From Beroe forskalii (Eukaryota > Ctenophora > Nuda > Beroida > Beroidae), in the NCBI GenBank assembly GCA_011033025.1, contig WFMF01000058.1, forward strand, positions 186,001 to 250,000: 64,000 nucleotides of DNA, given 5' to 3'. Shown here piece after piece: positions 2,235-64,000 of the stretch (within the stretch, counting starts at the first letter, position 1; every line of letters starts with the position of its first letter). The position numbers were made by a program, and so were the translations under genes. The notes under the pieces are model-generated. The model made no database searches. It was not told where the DNA came from and was given only the letters and a program-made list of their open reading frames with translations.

Positions 2235-3552
2235 ACAAGTTCCGACACAAATCTGGCTACTCCAGATGCTACTGATAAGAAGATAAGCTCTACCTCTCCC
2301 TTGTTAGAGACTGATATCCCTCTTCTGGCTGAGGGAAGGACAACGGAGGCCGTGGAGGAAATACTGAACTTCTGTCAAAGTGACGATGCTACCGGGAAGG
2401 ATAGGAAATTACTCCAAAACTGCATGGCAAGTGCATCAAACGTGCACTTGCCGTATCGAGGTGAATTTTAAATATACTAAGTGTTTCCAGGTAAATCCTA
2501 TTTAGACTTGCTAGGATTTAGGAAGGGATTCGTTAGGAAGAGAAAAAATCATTAAAATATGCAAGAAAACTGAGTATGTTTCCCCAGGATATAAAATCCG
2601 GGAAATAACGGAAGTTCAGAAGTGTTCCACATCTCCGCCTCCTGTTTGGCTGATATGCAATGGGGTGGGAGCTCAGTGGCCGGGCATGTTGAAGCACATC
2701 TCCCAGCACCCACTTAGTAAAGAGATTCTTGAGGAGCTCACTCAGCTCCTCCTGCTCCATTCCTTCGACTTGACGAGACTCCTCCAGTCGGAGGATCACC
2801 GGATTTACGGCGAGCCAAAGTACCTCTTCGTAGGCCTCGCAGTGGTCCAGTGTCTGCAGGTGGGTTGGTAATGCAAGTGGGGCTTTTAATCCTTCCCTTG
2901 AAAACCAGTGAGGTTTTATTCCACTTTATTTCAAAATGCCGTATATAAAAAAGATTAAAAAAGCCAAGCTGAATACTGTCCGCGTCATATTTCACGAACC
3001 TCACTGGTACTCCTAGGTTCGTCTAAGAAGTGTGCTAAACGATTTCATTCTCAGATAGAACTGCTCCGGGCTTGCCAAGTTCCCATCTCCGGGGTAGTAG
3101 GGCACAGTTTCGGGGAGCACGCTGCAGCCTTTGTGGCGGGGTGTCTCACTAGACATGAGTTTATCCTGACAGCACTAGCTCGTGGCAAGGTCATCTCCCT
3201 GTGTGAACCAGGGGCTATGGCTGTGGTGGCTTCCTCCTGGGAGAAGGCTAAGGACATCGCTACCAAGTTCAATGTCGAGGTAATATTAGGGATAATATGA
3301 TGAGTTATCATTTTCAAATCACTGGCTCCCAATCATGAATTCAAGAATAGGTTAGACTAGTCATTTTCTGCAATATGGATGCAATTGACAAATGACAATT
3401 CTAAATTTCTAAAGTGGAATGATTAACGATGTTTTCATTTTCAGGTTGCTTGTGACAATTCCCCTACTTTGGTCACAATGTCTGGTACAACTGATAACAT
3501 TGATAGAATGGTTGAAAAACTAAGGAAAATGGACAATTGCAAGGAAGATTGA
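2235..3552 (+). CDS. Fatty acid synthase-like gene, linker and malonyl/acetyl transferase (MAT) exons
   Basis: These exons continue the FAS-like gene. MAT loads acetyl and malonyl units from CoA onto the carrier protein. Exons are 2235-2460 (linker; EGRTTEAVEEILNFC matches human GRTPEAVQKLL), 2588-2859 (VWLICNGVGAQWPGM, the start of MAT), 3055-3279 (GHSFGEHAAAFVAG, then LTALARGKVIS) and 3445-3552 (VACDNSPTLVTMSGTTD, matching human CHNSKDTVTISG). Splice phases agree across all four. The GHSxGE nucleophile Ser and the following RG arginine are kept, so MAT looks usable although the upstream KS does not. Reading stops at TGA 3550-3552 well inside MAT. A one-base shift there would restore similarity to the family, and the poor-quality block starts at this point, so the stop is probably not the natural C-terminus. 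The rest of the enzyme (DH, ER, KR, ACP, TE) is not seen. Confidence 0.85.
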
Positions 3553-6425: not shown

Positions 6426-9400
6426 ATGAAGTTTATTTCTTTGGGGGCTGTCTGCTGTCTTGTTTACTTTTTCATGCTTCCGAAAAGTAATGAAGCTGCC
6501 AAGAAAAGTGATGGAATAGCTGTGACTGACAAGGTTACCATTTCATTTTTATGACCATTCTTTTTGATGATTGCTCCTAGGAAGTTTTAGGTCTGACATT
6601 CCTTATTCCTCATTGCTTCAATATAAATAGTTTCTTCTAAGTTGAACTGAAAGTCACTGATAAACAAACAGGAGTTGAGAAACATGCCTGATACTGTAGG
6701 ATCATATTAGCCTGATATTAAAACATTTCATAAACTTGGAACCTATCTTTTTACTACTGCTTTTAAACTAGTAAAGCATTGCAATTCCCTTTTGACGAGA
6801 TAGATATAATAAAGGGTAGTAAAAGGTTTAAACTTGGCCTCAAAGGGGTTAACTACTACCCTCCTACCCTTCGAAAGAGGAGTAAACCCCTAAATAATGA
6901 TTGAAAATCTTTTATTGGATTTTTGGTTGTCCAAACACTGGAAATGGAGGCAAATTGAGCGCTCAGTTAAGCGCTGAGTTAAGCCTTGCGCTGATCTACC
7001 CATTTGCCGAAATAGATAGTGAAGAGTGAACAGTTTTTCTGAAGTTTAAAACAGTCTAAGGCTGTGCCTCACAATCCGTTTTATTACCCTCTTGAAGAGG
7101 TGCTTTCGATTGACGAGCACACATACTCCAAGATCTCTGCCAATAAGACGTGTATGAGACAACTAGCAGGCCCGTTGGGCCTGGTTATAAAACCAGTCGT
7201 GTACAACTTAAAGGAAGGTTTAACCAAGTAGATCTGACCATCCTGATTTCAGATCCGCGAAGAACCAAGTGCGCCAGGTGGTGCAACATGGCGCAATTGT
7301 GCCATTTTGGCGCCAAGGCGCCAAAAATACTAACTTTTGATAGGTCGTAGAGTCTTCATTTTCACTAAATGAACCGCAATGGCCATGTCTACGACTTTTT
7401 AATAAACATATGCCCTAAAATGCTCACATAGCAAGTTATGAGCAAAAAACTGTTTTCGGCCCTCGCATTGACTGAAATAAGGCTATTTTTCGTAATTTCG
7501 GCCAGGAGGTCGTAGAAAATTTGTTTAAAACCCAAAAGAAGCGCAATGGCCATGTTTTATATACTCTTAAACGCTCACAAGCGAAGTTATAGGCAAAAAA
7601 CCGTTTTAAGCATCGGCCATTTTTAACCTATTCTTCACCTCACAGATAATAGGACTGGCAAGTAGGGGAGCCCATGTATCCGTTTCGGTAACACGGGCTC
7701 CCCAATTCCAGGTATCACACCGTTCACCGTACCCAGGTTTCACCGAACCCAGTTCACCGTACCCAGGTTTCCCCCACACATGGGATTCCTCTATACACCC
7801 CTAATCCCTATACACCACTCCCCTTGATTAATCTAGGGCTCACCCGATTGTCCGGGGCTCACCTCTATACATGGTCTCGCCCATGCCAGACTCACCACAT
7901 TTCCGAGCTTCACCATACCAGGCTCCACCAAACCTCGGGCGTCACCAATGCCCCGATTACCGATTGAAACCGCACCCGTGGGGGCGTTGCCTTAAATTCT
8001 CCCTAAATATATCAACTTTTCTCACTCAAACCTTCGAAATATTGATGCGAAAACAATCAAGTTTATGTGTGATCAAATCAAGAAAACTACCTTAAAGAGG
8101 TGTATTTATATGGGATAAAATTTCGGTGTTTCAAATTTTGGTAAGTTAAAAATATGGGGGTTTTCTCAACCATTACTCTTGTTAACATATGATAATGACT
8201 TCGTCATGGTGTGTTGAAAAATAGGGATTTTTATGAAAAATCCCCAAATTACAACCTTTATAAATAAACCTCTAAGGTAAATGATATTTGCTAAGGATCA
8301 GGATGAGTTATGAGGAATGAAAACTAGCCACTATCACCCACAGTCCTCCTTATCCTAGATATGATAATCCCGTCCCGAATCACATAAAACTGGTGAGGCT
8401 CCTCTGCAATCTTCTTTCGAAGTTCCACCACCAGCTTTCTCTGAGACTTTCGCTCCTCCTCTGACCTGTCCGGACACAGGAATACCCTATTACCCTCTCA
8501 AACCTTGTTGACTTCTTCAGCTCTGAACTTTCCTTAAGATCTGTAGTGCTGTAGCCCCATTTCCCAACTTTACTTTGACTGGTCTCGCTATCCCCGGCTT
8601 CTTCATAACAATCCGGATTCCTTCGAGTTTCGTCTTTTCGCCGAGCTCCTGGAACACTTCTCCAACTTTGTTTCCCAACGCTTCGTTCTCGGACTCTTCA
8701 ATCTACCGAAAATTAATACATTTCTCGGATGGTAGGACAAAACAGCCTTCTGGAGACACTTCTGACTGAGAGGACTCCCCTGATTGCTTGATACAGCTGT
8801 ACTGAATGACTTGATCTCACTGACAGTATCAGACACTGCCTCTGTGACAACTTTACCAACGCTTTTCAGAGACTTTTCCTGAGATTCAAGAAGCTCGTCC
8901 TGCAACTCAATGGTCTTCTGGGACAAATCCTCTCTGTCATCTTTCAGCTTCTTGATCAGTTTCTGGTTCAAAATGATACTCCAAGCCTCTTTCATAAGTT
9001 TAACTGAAATTTCTTTCCTCTCACGGTTGAGATAAGCCTTCAACTGGGATTCTATGTGGGATCCCACCGGTTCGAAACACGAATTGACACCTATTGCTTT
9101 CATCACTCCTCCGATCCACATCAGAGAAACTTCACCCGCATCATGGGGTGTGGGACTTTGATCATCACTCATTGTACAAGTATGAGGGTTACTTGTACAT
9201 CGTATAATGAAAAGAGATAAGTAGCGATATGAAAAGAAATAAGTGCCTTTGGGATAACCCTCGATACAGGGGCTCACCCGTACCAGACTCACCTCATTGC
9301 CGGGCTACACCATACCAGCCTCCACGAAACCTTGAGCATCACCAATGCCTTGGGATAACTCCGATACAGGGGCTCACCCCTACCAGACTCACCTCATTGC

Positions 9401-12400
9401 CGGGCTACACCAAACCAGGCTCCACCAAACCTTGGGCTTCATTGATGTTCTGGGCTAAACCTAAAACATGGGATCACCCATAACAGGCCCACCCTTACCG
9501 TGGGCTTCACCGCACTTGGCTCCACCTTATCCTGGCCTTCACCATAGCTTGGGGTCATCCTGAAACATGGGATCTCCCATAGGAGGCTCACTCTTACCTT
9601 GGGCTTCACCGATCTTGGCTCCACAATATCCTGGGCTTCACCATAGCTTGGTCTCCCCCACACTTACTTGGGCTCCCTCTTACTAACTCGGGCTCCCCCT
9701 ACCAACTCGGGCTCCACCATGCCAACTTGGGCTCTCCCTACCAACTCGGGCTCCCTCACACTAACCCGGGCACCCAATACTTATTCGGGCTTCCCTGCAA
9801 ACTCGGGCTCCACCATGCTAATGAGGGCTCCCCCATACTAACTTGGGCTCCACCTACCAACTTTGGCTCCCTCTCACTAACATGGGATCCCCTTACTAAC
9901 TCGGGCTCCCCATACAAACATACAAACCTGGGCTCCCACATACTTCTTGGGCTCCCCTACCAGCTCGGGCTCCCCAATAACAACTCGAGCTGTTCCATAC
10001 TAACTCGGGCTCCTCCATACTAACTGAGGCTGCCCAACACTTTTTGGGTTCCCCCTGGGTACAAACTTGAGCTCCCCCGCACTATTTGGGCTCCCCCATA
10101 CCAACTAGGGCTCCCCCGTACTGTTCGGGCTCCCTCAAACCAAGTTCGGCTCCTCCCGTACTGTTCGGGCTCCCCCATACAAACTTGGGCCCCCGTACTG
10201 TTCGGGCCTCCCCATACCAAGTTCGGCTCCCCCGTACTGTTCGGGCCTCCCCATGCCAAGTTCGGCTCCCCCGTACTGTTTGGGCTCCCCCATATTAAAT
10301 TGGGCTCCCTCGCACTATTTGGGCTCCCTTATACCAAGTTGGGCTCCCCCGTACTGTTGGGGCTACCCGTACCAACTTGGGCTCCCCCGTACTGTTCGGG
10401 CTCTCCCAAACCAACTCGGGCTCCCCCATACAAACGTGGTCTCCCCAGCACTGTTTGGGCTCCCCCAAACCAATTTGGGCTCCCTCGCACTATTTGGGCT
10501 TCCCCATACCAACTTGGACTACCCGTACTGTTCGGGCTTCCCCATACCAACTTGGGCTCCCCCCATACCAAGTTCGGCTCCCCCGTACTGTTTGGGCTCG
10601 ACCCCATAAAATAGCAGGATATAGGCAAAAGAACGTTCTGTCCCTCCCCAGATGTACCCATCTTACACATAAATTTGTTTCAGGTGTACTTTGACATGGC
10701 CATTGGAGACGAGGCAATCGGTCGTATTGAAATCAGTCTGTTCGGTAATGATGTGCCCAAGACAGTCAAGAACTTTGTCACCTTGGCATCAGGCGAGGTG
10801 AGAAACATTTCCCAGTTCATAATTCCATTTGTACTTGCAAAGATGATAAAAGAGGCACCTGCATCGTTCTGCGTCGATCGAATTGACTGATCAAATGAAC
10901 AACGCACACAATGGCTCCCGCTTGCTATACTGTTTTGCGCGGACGTGATTGTGAAAGTGTATGGCGCGCGATTGTCATTTGAGCAGTCCATTCGATCGAC
11001 GCGGACTGAAGAAACCAACACACAAACATCGGGAATATCTTTTTTCCACCCAATCGACTTTTTATTTTACGAAAATTAATTGAATGGGTTGGTAATGGAC
11101 ATGGTTTGGGAAGGTGAGCAAAAGGATGTGTACATAATAGCAGGTCCAGGTTTACATAAGAACCAATGTAATTTATGGAAAGTGCCAGGAAAATGGTGAC
11201 AGATGACCTCCCGTTAGCGCCCTTTTCCATTACAAAAAACTACTCTATCATAATGTCATTCGCTTCGGAGTTTGTAATTGTGCATTATTCTCTGTAGTCG
11301 GCATGCAGCTAGCAAACAAGATCAATTCTCCGGTCATCCTAACCTCGATTCACGAATCTCTTCACTATGTGGCTGTCAGTTGTCAAAACGTACCTTTTAT
11401 AGGATAACCAGGACCATCTGTACCACAGGCTCCAAGTTGCCTAAATTATGACAATTCCTCAAGGTTTGCTCAAGAATAAGTTTCTCAGGAGTGAGTTGGG
11501 TTATTGAGGAAAAGGCTCCGGTCCTATACAGTGTACTCAGCATAGTACCAAGTGTCCAAGTAGGTACTACTGTAGCTTTACACAGAAATTGAGAAACATC
11601 AACGTACTATGTAAAGGTTGCTCTTCGGAACAAGCAACAACATTGATGATGACCAGACAAGCGTATGAAGTTTGAAAATCTGACGTCAAATTAGTGAATG
11701 ACTTATCATACCAAGACAATTAATACCGTAAAAAGATGATCTAGCATCTATGCTCATTGTATTTTGAAAATTTTCCAACATGTTCATGGTTCATCCTAGT
11801 CCCTAGATGATTATCGTCCTTTCCCTGAAGACGATAATCACATGATTTTCGTAAGCTCCTGATTTCAAAACTTCTTGTATCATTCAAACGTTTTCAACTT
11901 ACTCCCTTAGTGCCTAGATGATAATGTGCATGAGTGATAGAGATGCTGGATGAAACTAATTAAATAAGTAAAGCAAGTAAATAAAAGGTGGCACTTATAA
12001 TGACTTATAATGCGAAAGAAATGCCATTCAACAAAATTGCGCTCAACCTACAACGAACTAGCAACTTCTGACGAATGCACATTGCACATGCTAGAATTTC
12101 CGAACATTTGGCAATGCGTATTCCTGGTGGTAGGGCACAGCATCGCAGCGATACCTATCCTTTCAGGTGCTCTCAACTTTCTTTCCTCCCTTGGCATTAT
12201 ATTTACAGCGTAACTTTCACAATCCATTGGGCAATATAACACTCTGGCTCACTTGGTAAGCCATGTAATACCTTCCTGATTCTCATGGGTAGGGCGTTAG
12301 TGCACGGCTTTTAAGGTGAGGAGGTATTGTTTTTTGATATACTGATCTATAGTACCAAGCACGGGGAGGGAGATCTAAGCGCCTGAAAAACGAGGCAACA

Positions 12401-15400
12401 GGCGGTCGCGTATTCGAGTGTTGACCCTGATGTTATACTTTACACCTTTCAGAAAGGTCCCGGATTCCAGTACAAAGGGAGCACGTTTCACCGTGTTATC
12501 AAAGACTTCATGATTCAAGGAGGTGATTTCACAAGACACGACGGAACTGGAGGTGAGTCCTTCTGGGGTAGTGGGATCAGGGATGGACAAATTGAAATGT
12601 GATAATTATCGTTGTATCACTCTCATAGTCTGGTGATTTAGATATGTGCATAAATATTCATACCCTGTTGACTCTTATTGACCCGCCCTTAAGGGTAAAA
12701 ATGAAAGTAACATTTTTGTCCAAAGGGCCGGTGAGAAGGAGTTCGGGAATTATTGGGGGGATTGTAGCCCAAAAAAAAACCAAGCCCTACCCTATTTTTC
12801 GATTCTTGGGCTAGGTTTTTTTTGGTTTTTTTTGGTTTTTTTAGGTTTTTTTTGGGTTACATTTTGGTCATTTCTGGGGCTTTTTCCAATGAATTTTGAC
12901 ATAAAAATCTGTTGTTTTTGAACATAATTTTCACAGTCAGTGGCTTTTAAAGTTTATTTGGTGAATAGAAACGGCTATTTTCAAATTTTCAGAGCTTGAA
13001 GGGCTTAGGTACCTATGACCTAACAGTAAAATGCACAATATTGCCTGACTAACTGGTGTCTCTTGCTGACTTACTGGTGACTCTTGCCTCAGTGACTGGT
13101 GACCCATGCCAGACCCAGCTTGTAACTTTTGCCTAACTCACTGGTGACTATGACCTGATCCAATGGCAGGCATGAATCCACCGGGGGCGTGTGGGGGCGT
13201 GCGCACGCCCCCATCAGAAATTTGGGGGCGTGCTTGGGGGCGTGCAATTTTTGAAAATTTGATGCTTGCGATTTAATTCAAGATGCCAAAAATAAACTTA
13301 GTGGAAAACTTTTATTTATATTCGTTACTTCTAGAAGCATATATTCTAAATTTGAATACCTCTGATAATGGTATTTTTATCTACATAAAACAGTACAGAG
13401 TAGCTGTACTATGATCAACCATATTTTATAGTTAGCAAAAGGCATGAAACAAAACAGAGGGCCCATGCGTTACGCATTAACAAAAAGCACACCTCCAGAA
13501 CCATAACAAAAGGGATACATGAACTAAAAATAATTTTTCAATAATAAGGCTTGAAAAGTGAAAAATAGCTCACGGGCTAAAACGGGTCATTTAGTTGTGC
13601 AAGGGTGATTGTGTAGTACAAAGTGTACTACACACGATTTTTCGGCCTCCATCCAAAAAATAATATTCATGCCAGTAGCCTTGAAGGCTTGAGACAAAAA
13701 CAGGATTTAGAGTTTATGAATCCTATATATATTCAAAAACTCTACTGCCTTTGCAGTATTACAACAACGAAAATAAAAGTCGCCAATAACAGGCACAATG
13801 CAATTGATTTCCAATTTCTTTCTTTTTCTTAATACTTCAGACATCTAACTTCTGGGGCTGCTGCCCCACAGACCTCTGGAACACTTTTGATTTTATATTT
13901 ATATCAATGAGATTTTGTACGACAGCATTAACAGCGCTGTTATATTGAAAGCAATGCCCAAACACTATTGAGTTGCCATTTCTTTATACTCCAGACCTCT
14001 GGCTTCTGGGGGCTGCCGCCCCCAGACCCCTGCTGCTCCTTTGATTCTAAATATAATATTCATTGGAATTTTGTACGACAGCAACAACAGCGCTGTTAAG
14101 TTGAAAACAATGCCCAAACACTAATGAGTTGCCATTTCGTTATATTCAAGAACTCTGGCTTCTGGGAAAAGCCGCCCCCAGACCCCTGCTGCTCTTTTGA
14201 TTCTTAGAATAACATTCATTGGAATTTTTATGACAGAAAGGACAGTGCTGTTATCAAGTTAAAAAAATAATGCCCAAACACTATTGACTTACCATTTCTC
14301 TATACTTCAGACCTCTGGCTTCTGGGGGCTGCCGCCCCCAGACCCCTGCTGCTCTTTTGATTTTATATTCATTGAGATTTCGTACAACAGCAACGAGAGC
14401 GTCGTTAAGTTGACAACAATGCCCAAACACTATTTAGTTGCTGCCGTCCCCAGACCCTTGCTGCTTTTTTGATTCTAAATTTTATATTCATTTGAATTTC
14501 GCACAACAGCAACAACAGTGCTGTTAAGTTGAAAAAAATGCCCAAACACTAAAGAGTTGCCATTTCGTTATACTCTAGACCTCTGGCCTCTAGGGGCCGC
14601 CGCCCCAGACCCCTGCTTATACATACTTTAATTATCCTTCACATATTCAAAAACTTCCTATGTGCGAACGAGGTGCCGCGAAGCGGCACCTCGTGCAGCT
14701 CATGCCGAGTGAGCTGTATAAATTTGCACGCCCCCAAAAATTCTGGGCTGGATCCATGCCTGTCCAATGGGACCTCAAACCTGAGCGGCTGTGACTCCTG
14801 GCTGACACGCTGAGTGCTGTCCAGCTTTGCAACTCTTGCCTAATTCACTGTTGACTCTGACCTGACCAACTAGGGCCTCTTTCTCTCTAGCCTGACTAAA
14901 TTATGACTTTTGCCTGACCTATTGGCTTTTTGGTGACCTTTACCTGTTCCAGATGGCGATTCTTGCATGACCAAATTGTGACCCAAATTGTGACCAAGTT
15001 AGGCCTTTTGCCTGAATTCCTCAATGACTGGTGACTCCCCATTACCTGATCTCCTGGCGCCTCCTACTTGACCTACTAGCGTCTCTCATCTGGCCTACTG
15101 ACAACCTTAGCTGACCTAATAAGGAACCTTATGTGGCCTACTGGCGACTCTTACCTGGCCTAGTGACGCTTCTTATCTGACCTACTGACTAATCTTCTCT
15201 GACCTACTTGCGAATCTTACCTGACCTACTACTTTAATACTTTCGACCATTGCCTGACCATAGGTGACAGCAGACACTTACCTGTGACCCAGCTGGTACT
15301 TCTTGCCTGATCCACTAGTAAAACTTAAATTAAAAGCTCAAATAGATATAACTGTTTTAGCCATTGGCGTCTCTTGATCCTACCTGACCTACTAACGTCT

Positions 15401-18400
15401 TCTAATCCTACCTGACCTACTAGCTTCTCCTGACCCTACCTGACCTACTGGCGTCTCCTGATCCTACCTGACTAACTGGCATATTCTGGACTGATCCTAC
15501 CTGACCTACTGGTGTCTCCTGATCCAGCCTGACGTACTGGCATCTCCTGATACTACCTTACCTATTGGCATGTCCTGATCCTACCTTACCTACTGACGTC
15601 TCCAGTTCCTACCTGACCTATGACTGGCGTCTCCTGATCCTACCTGAACATCGTGATCCTACCTGACCTAATGGCATCTTCTGACCCTACCGTACCTAGT
15701 ACCTACTGGTGTCTGCTATCCTACTTGATCTACTGGCGTCTTCGGTTCCTACCTGACCTATAACTGGCGTCTCCTGATCCTACCTGACCTATAGCTCGTG
15801 TCTCCTGATCCTACCTGACTTACTGTACACTGATGTCTCCTGATCCTACCAGACCTACTGGCGTCTTCTGATCCTACCTGACCTACTGGTGTCTCCTGAT
15901 CCTACCTGACCTACTGGCGTCTTCTGATCCTACCTGACCTACTGGTGTCTCCTGATCCTACCTGACCTACTGGCATCTGGACTGATCCTATCTGACCCAT
16001 TGGAGACTGGCGTCTCCTGATCCTACCTGACCTATAGCTCGTGTGTCCTGATCCTACCTGACTTACTGTGCACTGATGTCTCCTGATCCTACCAGTACCA
16101 GACCTACTGGCGTCTTCTGATCCTACCTGACCTACTGGCGTCTCCTGATCCTACCTGACCTACTGGCGTCTTCTGATCCTACCTGACCTACTGGTGTCTC
16201 CTGATCCTACCTGACCTACTGGCATCTGGACTGATCCTATCTGACCCATTGGAGACTGGCGTCTCCTGATCCTACCTGACCTATAGCTCGTGTGTCCTGA
16301 TCCTACCTGACTTACTGTGCACTGATGTCTCCTGATCCTACCAGTACCAGACCTACTGGCGTCTTCTGATCCTACCTGACCTACTGGCGTCTCCTGATCC
16401 TACCTGACCTACTGGCATCTGGACTGATCCTATCTGACCCATTGGAGACTGGCGTCTCCTGATCCTACCTGAGCCTCCTAATCCTACCTGACGTACTGGC
16501 ATCTCCTGATCCCACCTTACCTATCGGCGTCTCCTGATCCTACCTGACCTATGACTGGCGTCTCATGATCCTACCTGACCTACAGCTGGCGTCTCCTGAT
16601 CCTACCTGAGCATCATGATCCTACCTGACCTAATGGCATCTTCTGACCTACTGGTGACTGCTATCCTACTTGATCTACTGGCGTATCCGGTTCCTACTTG
16701 ACCTATAACTGGCGTCTCCTGATCCTACCTTATGACCCAGCTGGTACTTCTGGTCTGACCCACTGCTGACTCTTAGCTGATCAAGTAACCCACTGGTGAT
16801 TCTGACGTGATCTTCTGGCCGGATACCCTCTTACATGAACCAGAGGCTGACTAGACCCTTGGCGGCATCCTTTTCAGACTCACTTCTCCCAGTGTTAATT
16901 GCTCAATTATGACTTCACAGGACAGTAGGACACGTTTCATCAACAAGTCGACTCTCGCAAGAAGCTGGTGGCACTTGCCTGTCCCTTGCCACACAGATGA
17001 CTTTTTGACAGCTCGTGAAAGATATGCTGAGCATCAATAATCAAGCCTTGCTGACTGATGAAGCCTTAATCATTGCTTGGTGACTAAGTGCCTACAAACT
17101 GGTCTTCTGGTGATCATTGTGGCTGACCTTTGTCAATCATAATTTAAGCAAGAATGCTAAATTGCTCTCAACTGGCCGACCTTCATCTGGCGACCTTCAC
17201 CTGGTGCCTTGTTGGTCCTTTCTTGTCCCCTGTGACTCCCAGCTGACTCCCTGCAACACTTCTCTGGCCCTCTGGTGACACTAGTCTGACCTCCTCATGA
17301 AGCCTTATCTCGCCCTGAGATGCGATGTAACGCTTGGTGAATCCTTGGCCCTTCGTCATCCGGCCCCAGAACCAAGGACGACCTTTGAAGGACCCTCGGG
17401 TCTTGAATAACCCCTACGTGGTAATGAGTGGCCAGAGCGCTCTTGTTTAGACCAGTATGGCCTGATTCGACACCTTTTGATCCTTTACTGTTCCTCTCTT
17501 ATCACTGTTGGACCAAGGTCCCGTGCTATCTCATGATTTTCCGTTGTACCTTATCAAAAAGCACTGAGGGCTCTTAAAATGCTTCTCAAATGCTAATCAA
17601 GTCCTTAAATAGTGATTTAAGCCATCTGTAATTATTGAAAACCATTGAGTATCAATAAGAATGTGTAAATAACACAAATAACACATTGGTGTGAAATGTC
17701 CAAAAAGTTCAAAAAATCCAACCCAAAAAAAACCAAAAAAACCCGAAAAAAACCAAAAAAACCAAGCCCTACCCCAAATTTGGGATCTTGGGCTTGGTTT
17801 TTTTTGGTTTTTTTTGGCTACAATCCCCCCATTATTGTCACAAAATCGTCACATTTTTTTCATAATGCCTGTTGAGGTTAAATGAGATTTGTCACAATTC
17901 TAATTGATTCCGTTGATTAAAGTATCATCATGTCCCTCCCTCTCTCTGTCTCCTCCCACTCTTTTATCTGTGGCTCTAACTTTGTCAAGCATTAGTGTTA
18001 AGATATGAATATATGACGTCATATCACTGCACATTACCATAACATAAATACCTGACACTTCTGCCCTTGCTTGGTAAAATGGAAGTGAATCTTAATATCT
18101 CTGTTATGCATTTTCTCAGAAATAGGGTGACGTATCCGCTTGCTTTTGTTGAGCTACGTGCGCGCTGCAAGTTTTGTGACAATTTTGAGCTCGAACATCT
18201 TTTGGGGCCGGTACATACTATGAACTTCGCGGAGGAGTTCATGATTCCGTAAAAGTGGATGCAAATTGGATGCACTTGGATGCAATGTGAAAATTTTCAC
18301 ATATTTTGTGAAAATGGTTTTGTGCGAGTTTTGAGGGCTGGAAATGTGTAAAAATGGTTCAGACATGATTGTATAGCGAATGCAAGTTACTTCGGATCGT

Positions 18401-21400
18401 TTTTGGGAGTTTTGAGAAGTTTTGGGCCCCAATATGGCTGAAAAAGGCCCAAAAAGGCCGAAAAATAAAGTTGCTTAAATTTGATTTTTATCGACTGGAA
18501 AGTAATTCTAGACATCCTAGGAAACATTCTGCGTGGTTTTTAGACCGAAATACGCTGTTTTCCGCCTGTGAGGGATGCATCCATTTCTGAAAAACGGACT
18601 GTAAAAAAGTGGATGCATTTTCACAAAAAGTGTGAAAATGGTTTTGTGCGAGTTTTGAGGGCTAGAAATGTGTAAAAATGGTTCAGACATGATTTTATAG
18701 CGAATGCACGTTACTTAGGATCGTTTTTGGGAGTTTTGAGAAGTTTTGGGCCCCAATATGGCCGAAAAAGGCCCAAAAAGGCCGAAAAATAAAGTTGCTT
18801 AAATTTGATTTTTATCGACTGGAAAGTAATTCTAGACATCCTAGGAAACATTCTGCGTGGTTTTTAGACCGAAATACGCTGTTTTCCGCCTGTGAGGGAT
18901 GCATCCATTTCTGAAAAACGGCCTGTAAAAAAGTGGATGCATTTTCACAAAAAGTGTGAAAATGGTTTTGTGCGAGTTTTGAGGGCTGGAAATGTGTAAA
19001 AATGGTTCAGACATGATTGTATAGCGAATACAAGTTACTACGGATCGTTTTTGGGAGTTTTGAGAAGTTTTGGGCCCCAATATGGCCGAAAAAGGCCCAA
19101 AAAGGCCGAAAAATAAAGTTGCTTAAATTTGATTTTTATCGACTGGAAAGTAATTCTAGACATCCTAGGAAACATTCTGCGTGGTTTTTAGACCGAAATA
19201 CGCTGTTTTCCGCCTGTGAGGGATGCATCCATTTCTGAAAAACGGCCTGTAAAAAAGTGGATGCATTTTCACAAAAAGTGTGAAAATGGTTTTGTGCGAG
19301 TTTTGAGGGCTAGAAATGCGTAAAAATGGTTCAGACATGATTGTATAGCGATTGCAAGTTACTTAGGATCTTTTTGGGAGTTTTGAGAAGTTTTGGGCCC
19401 CAATATGGCCGAAAAAGGCCCAAAAAGGCCGAAAAATAAAGTTGCTTAAATTTGATTTTTATCGACTGGAAAGTAATTCTAGACATCCTAGGAAACATTC
19501 TGCGTGGTTTTTTAGACCGAAATACGCTGTTTTCCGCCTGTGAGGGATGCATCCATTTCTGAAAAACGGCCTGTAAAAAAGTGGATGCATTTTTCACGCA
19601 AAAACAGCGTATGTGAAAATGGTTTTGTGCGAGTTTTGAGGGCTAGAAATGCGTAAAATGGTTCAGACATGATTGTATAGCGATTGCAAGTTACTTAGGA
19701 TCTTTTTGGGAGTTTTGGGGCTTTTTGGGCAATATGGCCGGGCCCAAAACTTCAAAGTTGCTTAAAAACGATTTTATCGACTGGAAAGTAATTCTGAACC
19801 ATTTTTACACATTTCCAGCCCTCAAAACTCGCACAAAACCATTTTCACACTTTTTGTGAAAATGCATCCACTTTTTTACAGGCCGTTTTTCAGAAATGGA
19901 TGCATCCGTCACAGGCGGAAAACAGCGTATTTCGGTCTAAAACCACGCAGAATGTTTCCTAGGATGTCTAGAATTACTTTCCAGTCGATAAAAATCAAAT
20001 TTGAGCAACTTTATTTTTCGGCCTTTTGGGCCTTTTTTCGGCCATATTAGCCCAAAACTTCAAAACTCCCAAAACGATCCGTAGTAACTTGCATTCGCTA
20101 TACAATCATGTCTGAACCATTTTTGCACATTTCCAGCCCTCAAAACTCGCACAAAACCATTTTCAAATTTTTTGTGAAAATGCATTCCTTACGGGCGAAA
20201 AACAGCGTATTTTGAGTTGGGTGGGCCTTTTTCGGCCTCGTAGGGGCCGGAAGTTCTCAAGCCTTCTAAAAACGATCCTAAGTACCTAATAACTTTTTTT
20301 AACTGAGCCATTTTCACTGAACCATTTTCATAAAAAATGTGAAATGCATCCACGGTTTTGCGAGCCGTTTTCGGTCCAAGAACCACGCACAATTTATCTT
20401 ATGATAACTTTTAACCCATGGACAAAAATTTTTGAACAAAATAAATGTATCAACTTTCCGGACCGAAATAGCCATTTAAATCCATTTTAAATCCAGTAAA
20501 TTGAATCAAAAGGTCCACAAATTCCCGTGTGATTTGATAATTTAGGGCATTATCGTGTTATGTTATCTTTTATAGTGTTCAAGTATCTTATTAAACACTG
20601 TATAAGCGAGGTCATAAAAGTTTCGTTTGACGGAAATAACTGGCCTTAAATTCAACCGACCCCACTTTGAAGCCTTGACCGGTCTTTCTTGCCCGGCCCT
20701 TGGGACAAAATCTCAAAGTCTAGAAGGCCGGCGCGGTTAGATAAGGGCATGTACCAGGTAATTATTCTAAATTTGAGCAACTTTATATAATTGCTCAAAA
20801 ACAATCTTAAGTTACTTTGTTCACTATACAAGCATGTCTAAACGATTTTAACACGTTTTCAGTCCTCAAAACTAGCTTAAACCATTTTCACAGAAAATGT
20901 GAAGATGCAACCACGTTTTTACACGCCTAAATATTCGGGAATGGATGCATCCCTCCCCGGGGAAATATGTTTTTGGTTTAAACTGAATGTTTCCTATCTG
21001 TGTCCTATGCATATGATCCGAAAAAAGTCAGATTTGATCAATCTTTAAATTCGACCCTTTTCGCCTATATCGACGACACAAAAATGACCAAGACTCCAAA
21101 AACGACTTTAGGTCACTTATATCGAAGTATCGATTATTCAAACATATTTCAACCATTCTCATCCAGTTTTGGCAAAATGTGAAAATTTTCACAATTTCAT
21201 CTCAGCCAGGTCGTCATTGTGAGCACGCGCGCATTTTCACAATTTGCATCCACTCTACGGAAGAGTCAATGTTTCGCCGGAATTGGAACAATTTGCGGCC
21301 AGAGTTAGGATTGGATTGACTTTGTGATGATGCAAATGTGTTGTAGATACATTGAATCGATAGTTTTGATAAGTTTTTAGGGTCGGACTGCCGTCATGGT

Positions 21401-24400
21401 GCCACCAGATAGCCGCCAAAGCCACCTATTTTCGTACGCGTATATACCCAATTTTGGAGCAATTCTAACCGGTATGAATGGGTCATAGGTACTCAAATTG
21501 TTGCTAGAGATGTTCCAGAGAGTGCGTGTGATGATATTTTAACCGTACATCTCGCTGGAAGCGTATAAGAAAGTGGAACAAAGTTTCTTAGACAAATGGA
21601 ACAAATATGGGACAACTTGTAAGCATACGGGAAAAAAATGGGACAAATTGTAAGCATATATTTGCGGCCAGAGTTAGGATTGGATTGACTTTGTGATGAT
21701 GTAAATGTGTTGTAGATACATTGAATCGATAGTTTTGATAAGTTTTAGGGTCGGACTGCCGTAATGGTGCCACCAGATAGCCGCCAAAGCCACCTATTTT
21801 CGTACGCGTATATACCCAATTTTGGGTAAATGTGTTGTAGATACATTGAATCGATAGTTTTATTCCCATCATAGAAAGTCAGCCGTCCCAATTTGCCACC
21901 AGATACCAGATAAATTGTAGCCGCCAGAAAGTTCCATATTTCTAGGAAACATTGTTCCACTTTCTTATACGCTTCCAGCGAGATGTACGGTTAAAATATC
22001 ATCACACTCACTCTCTGAAATATCTCTAGCATCAATTTGAGTACCTATGACCCATTTATACCGGTAAGAATTGCTCCAAAATTGGATATATACGCGTACG
22101 AAATTAGGTGGCTTTGGCGGCTATCTGGTGGCACCATGACGGCAGTCCGACCCTAAAAACTTATCAAAACTATCGATTCAATGTATCTACAACACATTTA
22201 CATCATCACAAAGTCAATCCAATCCTAACTCTGGCCGCAAATATATGCTTACAATTTGTCCCATTTTTTCCCGTATGCTCACAAGTTGTCCCATATTTGT
22301 TCCATTTTTCTAAGAAACTTTGTTCCACTTTCTTATACGCTTCCAGCGAGATGTACGGTTAAAATATCATCACACTCACTCTCTGGAACATCTCTAGCAA
22401 CAATTTGAGTACCTATGACCCATTTATACCGGTTAGAATTGCTCCAAAATTGGGTATATACGCGTGCGAAAATAGGTGGCTCTGGCGGCTATCTGGTGGC
22501 ACTCTGACGGGAATCCGACCCTAAAAACTTATCAAAACTATCGATTCAATGTATCTACAACACATTTACATCATCACAAAGTCAATCCAATCCTAACTCT
22601 GGCCGCAAATATATGCTTACAATTTGTCCCATTTTTTCCCGTATGCTTACAAGTTGTCCCATATTTGTTCCATTTTTCTAAGAAACTCTGTTCCACTTTC
22701 TTATACGCTTCCAGCGAAATGTACGGTTAATATATCATCACACTCACTCTCTGGAACATCTCTAGCAACAATTTGAGTACCTATGATCCATTTACACCGG
22801 TTAGAATTGCTCCAAAATTGGCTATATACGCGTACGAAAATAGGTGGCTTTGGCGGCTATCTGGTGGCACCATGACGGCAGTCCGACCCTTAAAACTTAT
22901 CAAAACTATCGATTCAATGTATCTACAACACATTTACATCATCACAAAGTCAATCCAATCCTAACTCTGGCCGCAAATATATGCTTACAATTTGTCCCAT
23001 TTTTTCCCGTATGCTTACAAGTTGTCCCATATTTGTTCCACTTTCTTATACGCTTCCAGCGAGATGTATGGTTAAAATATCATCACACTCACTCTTTGGA
23101 ACATCTCTAGCAACAATTTGAGTACCTATGACCCATTTACACCGGTTAGAATTGCTCCAAAATTGGCTATATAAGCGTACGAAAATAGGTGGCCTTGGCG
23201 GCTATCTGGTGGCACCACGACGGCAGTCCGACCCTAAAAACTTATCAAAACTATCGATTCAATGTATCTACAACACATTTACATCATCACAAAGTCAATC
23301 CAATCCTAACTCTGGCCGCAAATATATGCTTACAATTTGTCCCATTTTTTCCCGTATGCTTACAAGTTGTCCCATATTTGTTCCATTTTTCTAAGAAACT
23401 TTGTTCCACTTTCTTATACGCTTCCAGCGAGATGTACGGTTAAAATATCATCACACTCACTCTCTGGAACATCTCTAGCAACAATTTGAGTACCTATGAC
23501 CCATTTACACCGGTTAGAATTGCTCCAAAATTGGGTATATACGCGTACGAAAATAGGGTGGCTTTGGCATCACAAAGTCAATCCACTAGAACATCTACTG
23601 TATGCTACGGAGAAGGTGTTCTAGCATTTTTGTCATAAAAGTGTCAGGATTTTACAGGATTTTACAAGAGGTTCCTCTCCATTCTTGTCATGGATTTTAC
23701 GAAATTTCCGTCAATTAAAGTATCAACAAAGAGCTCCCTGTGGCTTTGCGGCTAGTATTATGTCTGCTCGATATCACGGTCTATGTTTTAGGCGGTTCCG
23801 CTGACGTAATTTAAATTGAGCAGAGTGGATGCTTGATTACGCCCGATTTTCTACTAGCTTGAATGAAACCATGTCCGTATCATGATATCGATTACAGATA
23901 TTCTTAGAAATTCGTAGGAGCTTGTTCGTGTCCAGCTACGGAACGCGCCGCCTGCTTCGTCGAGGATCAATAGGTACAACTCCTGTAAAATCATGACATT
24001 TTTGGGCTAGAACATCTACTGATGCTACGGAATCATCTTCTGGTCGCGGAGGCGGCGACGATGGTTGCATATACAAATCGTATCTTTTCAGGTTTTAAGC
24101 CGCGCTAATTGTGGCGCGCGCGCGGCGTCGATCTATTCTCAACACATGACACGTATCTTAACTGTTAACGGCCCTGAATCATTACCCAGGGAGCCGAGCC
24201 GTTACATATAACGTCATCAGCCGAAGGGAAGGGGTTGACAGGGAGGAAGGGGTCAAAGCACTGCTGACGTCAGCAAAAATTTTTTGAAATTCTAACATCT
24301 TTAGGTTTGAAACTTTTGTTTACCTATTGTACATATAAAGGGTGGGCGACATCTCATCTCACGACAAATTTTCCTTGTTTTAGAAAAATAAAAACAAGAT

Positions 24401-56588: not shown

Positions 56589-57560
56589 AATGGTGAACAA
56601 AGTAAATCATGATTTTGAAGAAATGATCGAAGGAGCCGGGTCAGTGGACACTAAGAGCCTGTCCGGGGGAGCCAAGATCAACACCATCTTCCACTTCCGC
56701 TTCCCTGGATACTTGAATGAGGTTTGCTGCTTCCTCACCCTAACCCTAATCATCTTCCACTTCTGCTTCCTTGGATACTTGACCGTGGGATATTTTGGTG
56801 AAAAATCGAAAATCCAAGTTTACATTCATATAAGTCATGCGGGTACTCTAAACCTATGTTTTCTGGGACGGGGAATCGATTCCAAGCATAATCTAAGCGC
56901 TATCGATCTCTCTTGACCCATTCCCGACCACGCCCAATTTTTGCATAGGGAATTTTTGAGGCCAAAATGCCATCTATATTAATAATTTCAGAGTGTTCGT
57001 GCATCTGTCTGTCTGTCTGTGTAAAATGACTATTTAAGAAGTGCATTTGATATTTTTGACCGGGTTTTTCGGGAAAGTCTTCACCCAATTAAGAGGATTA
57101 TTCATATCTATGATAAATTTGAATTGGACTATCCGTTAATTAGTTATTCGCATAATAAATATCATGCGTTTACTAAGTAAGACATTTGGTAAAGTAAGAC
57201 ATTTGGTAAAGTAAGAAATTTGGTAAAGTAAGACATTTGGTAAAGTAAGAAATTTGATAAAGTAAGAAATTTGGTGAAGTAAGACATTTGGTAAAGAAAG
57301 ACATTTGGTAAAGTAAGAAATTTGGAAAAGTAAGACATTTGGTAAAGTAAGACATTTGGTAAAGTAAGACATTTGGTAAAGTAAGATACTTGAATGAGGG
57401 GCGGTTGGACGAGCAGGAACTGCGCAAAGAGATCGGTTACGCTATTCGCAACATCCACGGCGTGAGGTCGGGGCTCTTCACTCCTGATGCAGCCTTTGAG
57501 ATGACAGTCAAGCGGCAGATCCAAACATTAGCTCCACCCTCCATGAAATGCATACAGCAG
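56589..57560 (+). CDS. Dynamin, two exons of the middle (stalk) region, partial
   Basis: Classical dynamins are GTPases that assemble round the neck of endocytic vesicles and pinch them off; this part belongs to the stalk that drives assembly. Exon 56589-56721 follows a strong TTTTCTCCTTCAG acceptor and reads [17 protein letters not shown] and [16 protein letters not shown] (human MVQQFAVDFEKRIEGSG, LSGGARINRIFHERFP). Exon 57399-57560 joins in phase 0: [20 protein letters not shown] and [10 protein letters not shown], ending SMKCIQQ before donor GTACGT at 57561. The alignment to human dynamin-1 is gap-free across the junction. Upstream GTPase exons are not found in the 17 kb before it, and downstream exons lie beyond the window. 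The intron between the two exons and the next one are built partly from copies of exon ends (see findings). Confidence 0.9.
57177..57387 (+). repeat. 17-bp minisatellite GTAAGACATTTGGTAAA
   Basis: About 12 units with variants AAATTT and GGAAAA, filling the 3' half of the short dynamin intron and ending directly before the exon copy GATACTTGAATGAG. Each unit holds GTAAG, the 5' splice-site core. The same word is mixed into the downstream 40-bp array at 58310-60880. Confidence 0.85.
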
Positions 57561-60500
57561 GTACGTGTGAGTTGCATTGCATGAAATGCATACAGCAGGT
57601 ACGTGTGTGAGTTGCATTGTATGAAATGCATACAGCAGGTACGTGTGTGAGTTGCATTGCATGAAATGCATACAGCAGGTACGTGTGTGAGTTGCATAGC
57701 ATGAAATGCATACAGCAGGTACGTGTGTGAGTTGCATTGCATGAAATGCATACAGCAGGTACGTGTGTGAGTTGCATAGCATGAAATGCATACAGCAGGT
57801 ACGTGTGTGAGTTGCATAGCATGAAATGCATACAGCAGGTACGTGTGTGTGTTGCATTGCATGAAATGCATACAGCAGGTACGTGTGTGTGTTGCATTGT
57901 ATGAAATACATACAGCAGGTACGTGTGTGAGTTGCATTGTATGGAGTGCATACAGCAGGTACGTGTGTGAGTTGCATTGCATGAAATGTATACAGCAGGT
58001 ACGTGTGAGAGTTGCATTGTATGAAATGCATACAGCAGGTACGTGTGTGTGTTGCATTGTATGAAATGCATACAGCAGGTACGTGTGTGTGTTGCATTGT
58101 ATGAAATGCATACAGCAGGTACGTGTGTGAGTTGCATTGTATGAAATGCATACAGCAGGTACGTGTGTGAGTTGCATTGCATGAAATGCATACAGCAGGT
58201 ACGTGTGTGAGTTGCATTGCATGAAATGCATACAGCAGGTACGTGTGTGAGTTGCATGAAATGCATACAGCAGGTACGTGTGTGAGTTGCATTGCATGAA
58301 ATGCATACATTTGGAAAACGTGTGAGTTGCATTGCATGAAATGCATACAGCAGGTACGTGTGAGTTGCATTGCATGAAATGCATACAGCAGGTACGTGTT
58401 TGGTGAAATTGCATGAAATGCATACAGCAGGTAAAATGAGGATTGCATTGCATGAAATTTCAGTAAGAATGTGAGTTGCATTGCAAAGTAAGAAATGCAT
58501 ACAGCAGGTACGTGTGTGAGTTGCATTGCATGAAATGCATAAAGTAAGAAATTTGTGTGTTGCATTGCATTTGGTGAAAAAAGCAATGTGTGTGTTTGCA
58601 TAAGATGAAATTTGGTAAACAGTAAGACGTGTGTAAAGTAAGCATTGCATAAATGAAATGCATACAGCAGGTACGTGTGTGGTAAATTTGCATGAAATGC
58701 ATACAGCATACGTGTGTGTGTTGCAATTTGCAAAAGTAAGAAATGTGGTTAAATTAAAATGTGTGTTGCATTACATTTGTAATGCATTTGGAAAAGTAAG
58801 AAATGTGAAAGTGTGAGAAATTTGTGCATGAAATTTGGTACAGCAAGACATTTGTGTGTTAGAAATTTGAAATGCATATACTTGGGCGAGTTGATTTGGT
58901 AAAGCAAGACATTGCATGAAAAATGCATAAAAGTAAGAAATTTGTGAAGTAAGACATTTGGTGAAATGCATACAGCAGGTAAAGTGCGTTTTGCAAAGTA
59001 AGAAATTTGCATAATCTAATGAGGTTTCGTGTGAGTTGCCACTTATTAAATGCAAGACATTTGGTACGTGTGTGTGTTGCATTGCATGAAATGACATTTG
59101 CAGGCACGTGTGTGACATTTGGTGCATGAAATGCATACATTTGGTAAAAGTAAGACATTTGGTAAATGCATACAGCAGGTAAAGTGAGTTGCATTGCATG
59201 AAATGCATACATTTGGTAGAAATTTGTGTGTTGCATTGCAAATAATGCATACAACAAGACATTTGGTAAAAGTTGCATTTGGTAAATAAGATTTGGTAAA
59301 CATTTGGTAAGTAAGACATTTGAGTTAAGACATTTGGTGAAATGACATTTGGTAAAAGACATTTGGTAAGTAAGAAATTTGGAAAAATAAGAAATTTGGT
59401 AAGTGTGACATTTGGTAAAAGAAATTTGGTAAGCAAGACATTTGTGAAAAGTAAGACATTTGGTGAAATGTAAGACAACAAAAAGTGAAATTTGCATTGC
59501 ATGAAATTTGGTAAGTAAGAAATTTGGTAAAGTAAAAAATTTGAAATGAAATTTGGTAAAGTAAGACATTTGGTGCATTGACATTTGGTACAGCAAGACG
59601 TTTGAGTTGCATTGCAGAAATGCATACAAAAGTAAGAATTGCATTGTGAAATGCAAGACATTTGTGTGTGTTGCATTGCATGAAATGCATAAACATTTGG
59701 TAAAGTAAGAAATTTGGTAAAACATTGACATTGTGTGTTACGTAAGAAATGCATACAACGTAAGACGTTTGGTAAAGTTGCATGAAATTTGGTAAAGTAA
59801 GTGTGTGTTGCATTGCAAAATTAGACATTTGAAATGTGAATTTTGGTAAAATGCATAAAATTTGAGTTGCATTGTATGAAATGCATACAGCAGTAAGACA
59901 TTGTGGCATTGTATGAAACATTTGAAATGTGTGATTTGCATTGCATGAAATGCATACAGCAGTGGTGTGTGTTGCATTGCATGAAATGATACAGGTAAAA
60001 TGAGTTGCATTGTAAGTAAGCATTTGCAGCCGTGTGACATTTGCATTGTAAAATGCATACAGCAGGTAAGTGTGTGTTGCATTGTATGAAATGCATACAG
60101 CAGGTACGTGTGAATGCATTGCATGAAATATGCAAAGGTACATTCGGTTGCATTATGAAATGCATACAGTAAGACATTTGGTAAAATGAAATGCATTCAG
60201 CAGGTACGTGTGTGATTTGCATTGCATGAAATGCATACAGCAGGTACGTGTGTGAGTTGCATTGCATGAAATGCATACAGCAGGTAAAAGTGTGACAGTT
60301 GCATTGTATGAAATGCATAAAGCAGGACATTTGGTTGCATTAAGAAATTTGGTAAAGTTGCATTTGCATGAAAAGACATTTGGTAAAAGGTACATTTACG
60401 TAAAGTTGCATTTGGTGAAATGCATACAGCAGGCCGTGTGTGAGTTGCATTGCATGAAATGCATACAGCAAGACATTTGAGTAATTAATGAAATGCATAC

Positions 60501-63500
60501 AGCAGGTACGTTTGGTAAGTAAGAAATTTGCATGGTGCAGTAAGAAATTTACAGCAGGTAAGTAAGAAATTTGCATGAAATGCATACAGCAGGTAAATGT
60601 GTGTTGCATTGCATGAAATGCATACAGCAGGACATGTGTGAGTTGCATTGCATGAAATGCATTTGGTAAAAGTAAGTGTTGCATTGCATGAAATGCATTT
60701 GGTAAAGTGTGAGTTTTGGTTGTATGAAATTTGCAAAGCAGGTAATACATTTGAGAGTTGCATTTGGCATGAAATGCATACAGCAGGTACGTGTTTGTGT
60801 GCAAATAATCATTTAGTAATGCATTCAAGGTGTGTGTTACGTGTGTGTTGCATTGCATGAAATGCAGTCATTTGGCGTAAACGACATGTAGTTGCATTGT
60901 ATGAAATGTGTGAGTTGCATTGCAAAGCAGGTACGTGTGTGAGTTGCATTGCATGAAATGCATACAGCAGGTACGTGTGTGAGTTGCATTGCATGAAATG
61001 CATACAGCAGGTACGTGTGTGTGTTGCATTGCATGAAATGCATACAACAGTACGTGTGAGTTGCATTGTATGAAAATGCATACAGCAGGTACGTGTGTGT
61101 GTTGCATTGCATGAAATGCATACAGCAGGTAAATTGTGTGAGTTGCATTGCATGAAATGCATACAGCAGGCCGTGAGTTGTGTTGCATTGCATGAAATGC
61201 ATACAGCAGGTACGTGTGTGAGTTGTACATTGCATGAAATGCATACAGCAAAATTACGTGTGTGAGTTGCATTGCATGAAATGCATACAGCAGGTACGTG
61301 TGTGAGTTGCATTGCATGAAATGCATACAGCAGGTACGTGTGTGAGTTGCATTGCATGAAATGCATACAGCAGGTACGTGTGTGAGTTGCATTGCATGAA
61401 ATGCATACAGCAGGTACGTGTGTGTTGCATGCATTGCATGGAAATGAATGCATACAGCAGGTACGTGTGTGTGAGTTGCATTGCATGAAATGCATACAGC
61501 AGGTACGTGTGTGAGTTGCATTGCATGAAATGCATACAGCAGGTACGTGTGTGAGTTGCATTGCATGAAATGCATACAGCAGGTACGTGTGTGTGATTGC
61601 ATGAAATGCATACAGTGTACGTGTGTGTGCAAATGAAATGCAAAGCAGTACATGTAGTTGCATTGTATGAAATGTGGTACAACAGGTGCGTGTGTGTATT
61701 GCATACATAAATACAGGCCGTGTGTGAGAGTTGCATGAAATGCATACAGCAGGTACGTGTGTGTGTTGCATTGCATGAAATGCATACAGCAGGTACGTGT
61801 GTGAGTTGCATTGCATGAAATGCATACAGCAGGTACGTGTGAGAGTTGCATTGCATGAAATGCATACAGCAGGTACGTGTGTGTGTTGCATTGCATGAAA
61901 TACAGCAGCAGGTGACCGTGTGTGAAATGCATACAATTGCATTGCATGAAATGCATACAGCAGGTACGTGTGTGAGTTGCATTGCATGAAATGCATACAG
62001 CAGGTACGTGTGAGTTGCATTGCATGAAATGCATACAGCAGGTACGTGTGTGAGTTGCATTGTATGAAATGCATACAGCAGGTACGTGTGTGTGTGAGTT
62101 GCATTACATTTGGAAATGCATACAGCAGGTACGTGTGTGAGTTGCATTGCATGAAATGCATACAACAGGTACGTGTGTGAGTTGCATTGCATGAAATGCA
62201 TACAGCAGGTACGTGTGTGAGTTGCATTGCATGAAATGCATACAGCAGGTACGTGTGTGTGTTGCATTGCATGAAATGCATACAGCAGGTACGTGTGTGA
62301 GTTGCATTGCATGAAATGCATACAGCAGGTACGTGTGTGTGTTGCATTTGGTAAATGCATACAACAGGCGTGTGTGGATGCATTGAAAAATGCATACAGC
62401 AGGTACGTGTGTGTGTTGCATTGCATGAAATGCATACAACAGGTACGTGTGTGGACGGTTGCATTGCATGAAATGCATACAGCAGGAAATGCATACATCA
62501 GTGTGTGAGTTGCATTGCATGAAATGCATACAGCAGGTACGTGTGTGTTGCATTGCATGAAATGCATACAGCAGGCCGTGTGTGTGTTGCATTGCATGAA
62601 ATGCATACAGCAGGTACGTGTGTGTTGCATTGCATGAAATGCATACAGCAGGTACGTGTGTTGCATTGCATGAAATGCATACAGCAGGTGCATTGTATGA
62701 AATGCATACAGCAGGTACGTGTGAGTTGCATTGCATGAAATGCATACAGCGAGTACGTGTGTGAGTTGCATTGCATGAAATGCATACAGCAGGTACGTGT
62801 GTGAGTTGCATTGCATGAAATGCATACAGCAGGTACGTGTGTGAGTTGCATTGCATGAAATGCATACAAATGCATGCAAGCAAAGATACGTGTGTGAGTT
62901 GCATTGCATGAAATGCATACAGCGAGTGTGTGAGTTGCATTGCATGAAATGTGTGTTGCATTGCATGAAATGCATACAGCAGGTACGTGTGTGAGTTGCA
63001 TTGCATGAAATGCATACAGCAGGTACGTGTGAGTTGCATTGCATGAAATGCATACAGCAGGTACGATAATGAGTTGCATTGCATGAAATGCATACAGGTA
63101 CGTGTGTGAGTTGCATTGCATGAAATGCATACAGCAGGTACGTGTGAGAGTTGCATTGCATGAAATGCATACAGCAGGTACGTGTGTGAGTTGCATTGCA
63201 TGAAATGCATACAGCAGGTGCGTGAGAAATGAGTTGCATTGCATACAGCAGGCACGTGTGAGTTGCATTGCATGAAATGCATACAGCAGGTACGTGTGTG
63301 AGTTGCATTGCATGAAATGCATACAGCAGGTACGTGTGTGAGTTGCATTGCATGAAATGCATACAGCAGGTACGTGTGTGAGTTGCATTGCATGAAATGC
63401 ATACAGCAGGTACGTGTGTGAGTTGCATTGCATGAAATGCATACAGCAGGTACGTGTGTGAGTTGCATTGCATGAAATGCATACAGCAGGTACGTGTGTG

Positions 63501-64000
63501 AGTTGCATTGCATGAAATGCATACAGCAACGTGTACATACACGTGTGTGTTGCATTGCATGAAATGCATACAGCAGGTACGTGTGTGAGTTGCATTGCAT
63601 GAAATGCATACAGCAGGTACGTGTGTGAGTTGCATAGCATGAAATGCATACAGCAGGTACGTGTATTGCATGAAATGCATACAGCAGTACGTGTGTGTGT
63701 TGCATTGCATGAAATGCATACAGCAGGTACGTGTGAGTTGCATTGCATGAAATGCATACAGCAGGTACGTGTGTGAGTTGCATTGCATGAAATGCATACA
63801 GCAGGTACGTGTGTGAGTTGCATTGCATGAAATGCATACAGCAGGTACGTGTGTAGGTACGTTGAGTTGCATTGCATGAAATGCATACAGCAGGTACGTG
63901 TGTGTGTTGCATTGCATGAAATGCATACAGCAGGTACGTGTGTGAGTTGCATTGCATGAAATGCATACAGCAGGTACGTGTGTGAGTTGCATTGCATGAA
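57543..64000 (+). repeat. 40-bp array copied from the dynamin exon-intron junction
   Basis: The consensus unit is ATGAAATGCATACAGCAG (identical to the last 18 bp of the dynamin exon, encoding MKCIQQ) plus GTACGTGTGTGAGTTGCATT and GC from the intron. The exon's own copy at 57543-57560 is the first unit. About 19 regular units run to 58310, a mixed zone to about 60880, then roughly 75-80 units to the window end. Every regular unit holds donor CAG|GTACGT. Since 40 is not a multiple of three and the minus strand lacks stops, all three minus frames read the same 40-residue periodic peptide; these long frames (up to 912 codons) are artefacts. The far end lies outside the window. Confidence 0.93.
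58310..60880 (+). repeat. Mosaic zone mixing the 40-bp and 17-bp repeat words
   Basis: Pieces of the 40-bp unit (GAAATGCATACAGCAG, GTTGCATTGC) alternate irregularly with pieces of the 17-bp unit (AAGACATTTGGTAAA). Switches occur at shared short words such as GAAAT, GTAA and TTTG. Units vary in length here but are regular on both sides. Two explanations fit: an assembly or consensus artefact that blends two arrays, or real template switching between them. Confidence 0.8.

Follow-up and report, generated by a model that had tools for sequence, protein, structure and literature searches.

How does the splicing machinery find the correct 5′ splice site of a conserved gene when the intron behind it offers about a hundred further sites of equal strength? 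The spliceosome's choice among equal neighbouring 5′ splice sites has usually been examined with artificial copies, two or a few in number. A natural test is offered by a dynamin gene of the ctenophore Beroe forskalii, part of which lies in the 64,000-nucleotide stretch analysed here (contig WFMF01000058.1, positions 186,001 to 250,000 of the forward strand; hereafter the window, whose numbering is used unless another is named): in this conserved gene a minisatellite built from an exon-intron junction places about 100 natural, equal donors behind the true site. The array is a repeat of the type described in amphioxus as "mirages". Most probably DNA turnover produced it as a by-product, in a genome rich in minisatellites, and the splicing machinery tolerates it. 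The class of repeat is known; what is unusual is its length and the number of intact competing donors.

Tandem Repeats Finder reports the locus as a single array of period 40 (consensus CATGAAATGCATACAGCAGGTACGTGTGTGAGTTGCATTG), lying at the dynamin exon-intron junction where a first-pass annotation, made from the letters alone, had placed it (Table 1). That annotation described the unit as the last 18 bp of a coding exon plus about 22 bp of intron, which the consensus and direct reading bear out: the last 18–19 nt of the exon are followed by ~22 nt of intron, and CATGAAATGCATACAGCAG/GTACGTG (a slash marks an exon-intron boundary) returns every ~40 bp, so that each intact unit contains the donor CAG/GTACGTG. 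The array reaches position 250917 of the contig (C669), where a scaffold gap of 100 N (C669:250918-251017, or L009:1918-2017) cuts it; its length of 7,376 bp is therefore a minimum. As far as the gap, the array has 111 copies of CAGGTA, 98 exact copies of ATGAAATGCATACAGCAG and 98 exact copies of CAGGTACGTG, 83 of the last within the window. The first-pass figure of about 100 copies thus holds for intact donors and falls short for units, of which 156 starts are recognisable by fuzzy matching. That annotation did not mention a disrupted part at 58301-60900, in which CAGGTACGTG occurs only 8 times, against 19 times in 57541-58300 and 71 times in 60901-64917.

The array begins within a coding exon, here called exon A, whose 3′ end reads TCC ATG AAA TGC ATA CAG CAG before the donor GTACGTG. 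Exon A matches mammalian dynamin-1 (66% over 53 residues) and the family profile PF01031 (C669:243390-243566, E 3.5e-10); the exon upstream matches dynamin-1 by tblastn (57% over 42 residues) and, by phmmer, a dynamin-1 chain in PDB, with a PF01031 match (E 3.2e-4) under the curated cut-off. The next exon, B (L028:6153-6260, acceptor tcacacccgctttccag), is found on a second scaffold, C181, to the right of the same repeat, which there occupies C181:982451-983648 and contains 25 exact copies of CAGGTACGTG, of which 3 lie on the opposite strand to the remaining 22. Translated together, the three exons align as one with dynamin-1 (3zvr_A, chain positions 353-487, E 1.2e-42); the only gap, of one residue, falls inside the first exon, and both joints are free of gaps. 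The end of exon A, coding SMKCIQQ, stands opposite SIKCVDM. The absence of a gap at the joints identifies the first donor as the coding one and the array as intronic. As the first-pass annotation had recognised, no later donor fits the protein: its use adds GTACGTGTGAGTTGCATTGCATGA, read as GTA CGT GTG AGT TGC ATT GCA TGA, that is, VRVSCIA followed by a stop after seven codons.

By this alignment the two scaffolds carry successive parts of one dynamin gene, or of its alleles. A search with an 80-nt repeat query, in which only the best candidates were scored and very common words skipped, gave 99 matches, all of them on these two parts of the dynamin gene. This distribution does not match that of an introner-like element, of which similar copies stand as introns in many unrelated genes. 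In the 38 kb past the scaffold gap (L009-L011, L031), tblastn with the dynamin-1 sequence found no match. A mutually exclusive second exon A was considered and rejected: of the nine PF01031 matches, no second one covers positions 158-216 of the profile on either C669 or C181, in a search that may overlook short exons, since exon B and a further exon, C, went unreported.

Table 1. Features of the dynamin locus in window coordinates
Feature	Position	Strand	Basis and details
Upstream dynamin coding exon	56589..56721	+	Acceptor ttttctccttcag, donor GAG/GTTTGC; 44 residues
Upstream intron	56722..57398	+	Direct reading
17-bp minisatellite AAGTAAGACATTTGGTA, 12.5 copies	57175..57386	+	Tandem Repeats Finder
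Dynamin coding exon A, 162 nt, 54 residues	57399..57560	+	Dynamin-1 similarity, PF01031
40-bp array of exon A/intron junction	57542..64000	+	Tandem Repeats Finder, direct reading; extends 917 bp past the window to the 100-N gap
Authentic 5′ splice site CAG/GTACGT, first of the array	57561..57566	+	Gapless join to exon B in dynamin-1 alignment
Array part mixing 17-bp-repeat pieces with 40-bp-unit pieces	58301..60900	+	Base accuracy doubtful

An array of this size could be an artefact of assembly, far shorter in reality or placed differently, and the first-pass annotation had feared a false join between array and exon. Such a join is unlikely, since on C181 the next dynamin exon has the same repeat as its neighbour, and the repeat thus adjoins consecutive exons of a single gene on two scaffolds. 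The ends of the array are also more regular than its middle, with a mean unit identity of 0.92 over the first 760 bp and 0.91 over the last 4 kb against 0.81 between them. On the other side, the scaffold gap lies at the array's end, and the middle 2.6 kb contains 456 of the array's 463 diagnostic 7-mers of the 17-bp repeat and breaks into 177 short runs, 96 of the 40-bp kind and 81 of the 17-bp kind. The 40-bp register persists across these interruptions to within 2 nt in 18 of 53 cases (6.6 expected) and to within 4 nt in 33 (11.9 expected), as it would in a mixed consensus. Insertion of intact 17-bp repeat blocks was rejected as an explanation: the 17-bp register persists only weakly, with 22 of 50 cases within 2 nt against 14.7 expected and 35 of 50 within 4 nt against 26.5. 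This part may be a consensus of two aligned read populations, and possibly a consensus error; given its resemblance to a mixed consensus, its bases are untrustworthy until checked on reads. A further point in favour of an artefact is that C181 is palindromic about the array (L028:3600-9300, C181:981600-987300), with exon C on both strands (L028:3624-3716 minus, 9172-9261 plus) and exon B once, in the right arm. For the array as a whole we regard an artefact as quite improbable.

Identity between the arms of the C181 palindrome is 97.0% in the 431 bp next to the array and 91.3% in 1433 bp farther out. The arms may represent a head-to-head join of two alleles, or a genuine inverted duplication in which one arm has lost the exon. 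Their differences bear on the length instability of alleles, but here alleles are inseparable from assembly error.

What class of element, then, is the array? The first-pass annotation knew of no described system of this kind, a statement that does not hold. Amphioxus mirages are tandem repeats across exon-intron boundaries, of both 5′ and 3′ types, in which many units contain AG/GT and copy number varies between alleles; in these two reports the hosts are cephalochordates only, and regular splicing is reported to be undisturbed, though the units could serve as cryptic sites (PMC3087553, PMC3902484). The dynamin array has the same structure: its unit straddles the exon A/intron boundary, the authentic junction of a coding exon is among the copies, as the gapless join shows, and AG/GT signals recur in many units, as in the 98 exact copies of CAGGTACGTG. 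Its 40-bp unit lies within the 10-72 bp given for Adh3 (PMC3087553). It differs in its gene and in extent, reaching 7.4 kb or more with 156 recognisable units, compared with the 3 and 6 units of 150-160 bp given for the BflGb6 haplotypes. Human internal tandem repeats, in genes of segmental duplications, also place minisatellites of ~30-bp units at exon-intron boundaries; they average 4 repetitions and can create novel introns or alternative splicing, whereas the dynamin array fills an existing intron (PMC2812944). Introns of earthworm metallothionein genes hold minisatellites too, a boundary-spanning unit not being described in the accessible part of that report (PMC12783039). A literature search, with most subscription journals beyond its reach, found no described array with this many donors.

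We propose a model in which the minisatellite would have been built as the 3′ end of exon A and the start of the intron (~18 + 22 nt) were duplicated in tandem again and again. The first copy is the true exon boundary and would stay under selection for the protein, while the other copies lie in the intron and would be excised with it, since the first donor joins the next exon. Tolerance probably arises through exon definition, the donor nearest the acceptor of the 162-nt exon being favoured. The exon is the likely source of the repeat because the protein constrains its sequence; we infer that copying ran from exon into intron, that splicing is accurate in vivo and that the array lacks a function.

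A different origin is suggested by the AGGT intron-gain model, by which the intron itself would have been born through tandem duplication of an AGGT-containing exon segment. The array shares with this model the tandem duplication of a segment with AG/GT (discussed in PMC3087553). The donor does lie within the duplicated segment, and 14-nt copies of the exon end bound the upstream intron on both sides. However, the acceptor of exon B has the ordinary form and stands outside the array, with ~500 bp of other sequence between them; the array therefore did not supply both splice sites of the intron, unlike the model, in which both lie in the duplicates. Birth of the intron in this way is thus very unlikely.

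At 56749-56782 the upstream intron holds a sequence (ATCATCTTCCACTTCTGCTTCCTTGGATACTTGA) that closely resembles the end of the exon before it. A further copy, of GATACTTGAATGAG (57385-57398), closes the intron and must be its acceptor, although it is not preceded by a polypyrimidine tract.

The AG/GT at each unit joint also invites a model of stepwise (recursive) splicing, in which each CAG/GTACGTG would act as an acceptor and then as a donor again, every path ending in the same mRNA. Splicing into a unit would indeed regenerate an identical donor. The units have no polypyrimidine tract before CAG, in contrast to two other acceptors of the gene, ttttctccttcag and tcacacccgctttccag; since the acceptor of exon A also lacks a tract, this is not decisive, and we give recursive splicing an extremely small probability.

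Might the extra donors themselves be functional? The first-pass annotation had suggested that they sequester U1 snRNP, slow or regulate splicing, or form a switch for nonsense-mediated decay, and a functional array could bind U1 snRNP, slow, regulate or divert dynamin splicing, and yield nonsense-mediated-decay isoforms. By a simple donor score, built on a consensus, 99 CAG/GTACGT sites of the array equal the true donor; besides the 98 exact copies of CAGGTACGTG, the stop seven codons past any later donor and the retention of GT favour such a role. Among 86 units of 30-50 bp from the outer, clean part of the array, the +1 G is altered in only 5 and the +2 T in 7. Retention of GT, however, is also expected from recent expansion and homogenisation, and the structurally similar mirages are reported not to disturb splicing. 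A small sample of other junctions gave no sign that they are preferred by duplication, and the arrays of the genome showed no preference for a donor motif (see below). A functional array of this kind is quite improbable, and it is no more probable that ~100 equal U1 sites act as a regulated decoy, holding back or redirecting dynamin splicing according to their number, with repeat length tuning the level of dynamin.

Several points nevertheless weigh against a by-product that splicing simply tolerates. When tandem 5′ splice sites are equal, the intron-proximal one is often favoured; tolerance of ~98 good donors is therefore not self-evident and poses a genuine question. In the same 86 units the mean number of changes is 6.8 over donor positions +1 to +6 against 2.6 over the 18 exonic positions, with 4.7 over the remaining intronic positions (the final two, spoiled by unit cutting, excluded). 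The donors are thus a little more variable than the other positions, yet are mostly intact, and their higher rate of change might reflect weak selection acting against internal donors. The scaffold gap interrupts the very intron that bears the array, and the test of junction preference described below is a weak one, covering 33 exons at four myosin loci.

The genome searched (216 Mb in 1134 contigs) is that of an animal, with at least 104 homeodomain matches; a search for the GFP family found no match in it, which says little, as the control genomes gave none either. It is rich in minisatellites: Tandem Repeats Finder returns 99 rows, some overlapping, for the 64-kb window. Repeats across exon-intron junctions also occur elsewhere. 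At one myosin locus a donor junction, ATAG/GTGGGTTG (ATAG/GTGGGTTGTTTTATACCC), is tandemly repeated in 2.2 copies, and on C225 an acceptor-side array repeats a 34-bp unit 7.9 times across TTTCAG/TTCAAC (L066+L067 reverse complement, 12256-12522), so that two of the four myosin loci read have junction repeats. The donor of the C580 exon at 7527-7757 shows, by eye, a two-copy duplication, AACAGTGCAAG/GTT. On C1, a 50-bp repeat of 2.6 copies crosses a putative exon end (TACCATTCTTCAATCAGTCCG/GTGAGTTTGGG), and in-frame units of 30-36 bp with TCAG/GTGAGG (L034:1469-2171) may be coding, each unit then having a possible donor. The five places inspected after the search for the donor motif AGGTRAG were selected by that motif and are no fair sample.

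Do such arrays prefer junctions? Genome-wide, a triple-AGGTRAG pattern gives 6379 matches (3328 + 3051) against 6323 (2956 + 3367) for the reversed pattern, a comparison that shows no excess and is coarse, because long arrays dominate the match counts. At a score of at least 24, 1 of 31 donors and 1 of 32 acceptors of myosin-head exons had a repeat across the junction, compared with 64 of 675 intron controls downstream and 69 of 659 upstream. The sample consisted of 33 profile-matched exons on 4 of the 11 contigs with myosin matches and covered the fetched stretches, which excluded a C580 match and those C173 matches lying farther off. Of 34 matches placed, 33 were kept, the other being a partial one at the margin of the C225 stretch; two donors and one acceptor near stretch ends were also left out. 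Exon ends were taken as the ends of profile matches, some of which cross stops, and a simple score served to choose the splice sites, not always well (-6.6 for one donor). The score test missed the C580 duplication because its target started 12 nt downstream, a blind spot that the controls share. The controls are not independent: their positions come from 17 arrays (score at least 50; 2,513 bases) in the four stretches, with most array bases on C225 and C173, so the test does not demonstrate a depletion at junctions and gives just no sign of a preference for them. In this sample there is thus no sign of selection for such arrays, and neither U1 sequestration, slowed splicing nor a decay switch, as put forward in the first-pass annotation, finds support in any of these results.

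The boundary-spanning minisatellites suggest a phenomenon that recurs in this genome and bears on the growth and origin of introns. For the dynamin array, RNA showing use of the first donor alone would provide a strong test for exon definition, and RNA showing use of internal donors would reveal a length-variable source of truncated dynamin.

A minisatellite also occupies the next intron, which follows exon B: it spans 2.7 kb with 11-bp units (ATGTTTTGAGA, 247.6 copies; L028:6266-8951) and starts at most 6 nt from the donor. On C225, two adjacent and similar myosin exons (L066+L067 reverse complement, 3496-3992) are perhaps mutually exclusive. Within the window, two tandem arrays have long units: 18293-19717, with 4.4 copies of 324 bp, and 21931-23568, with 4.5 copies of 368 bp.

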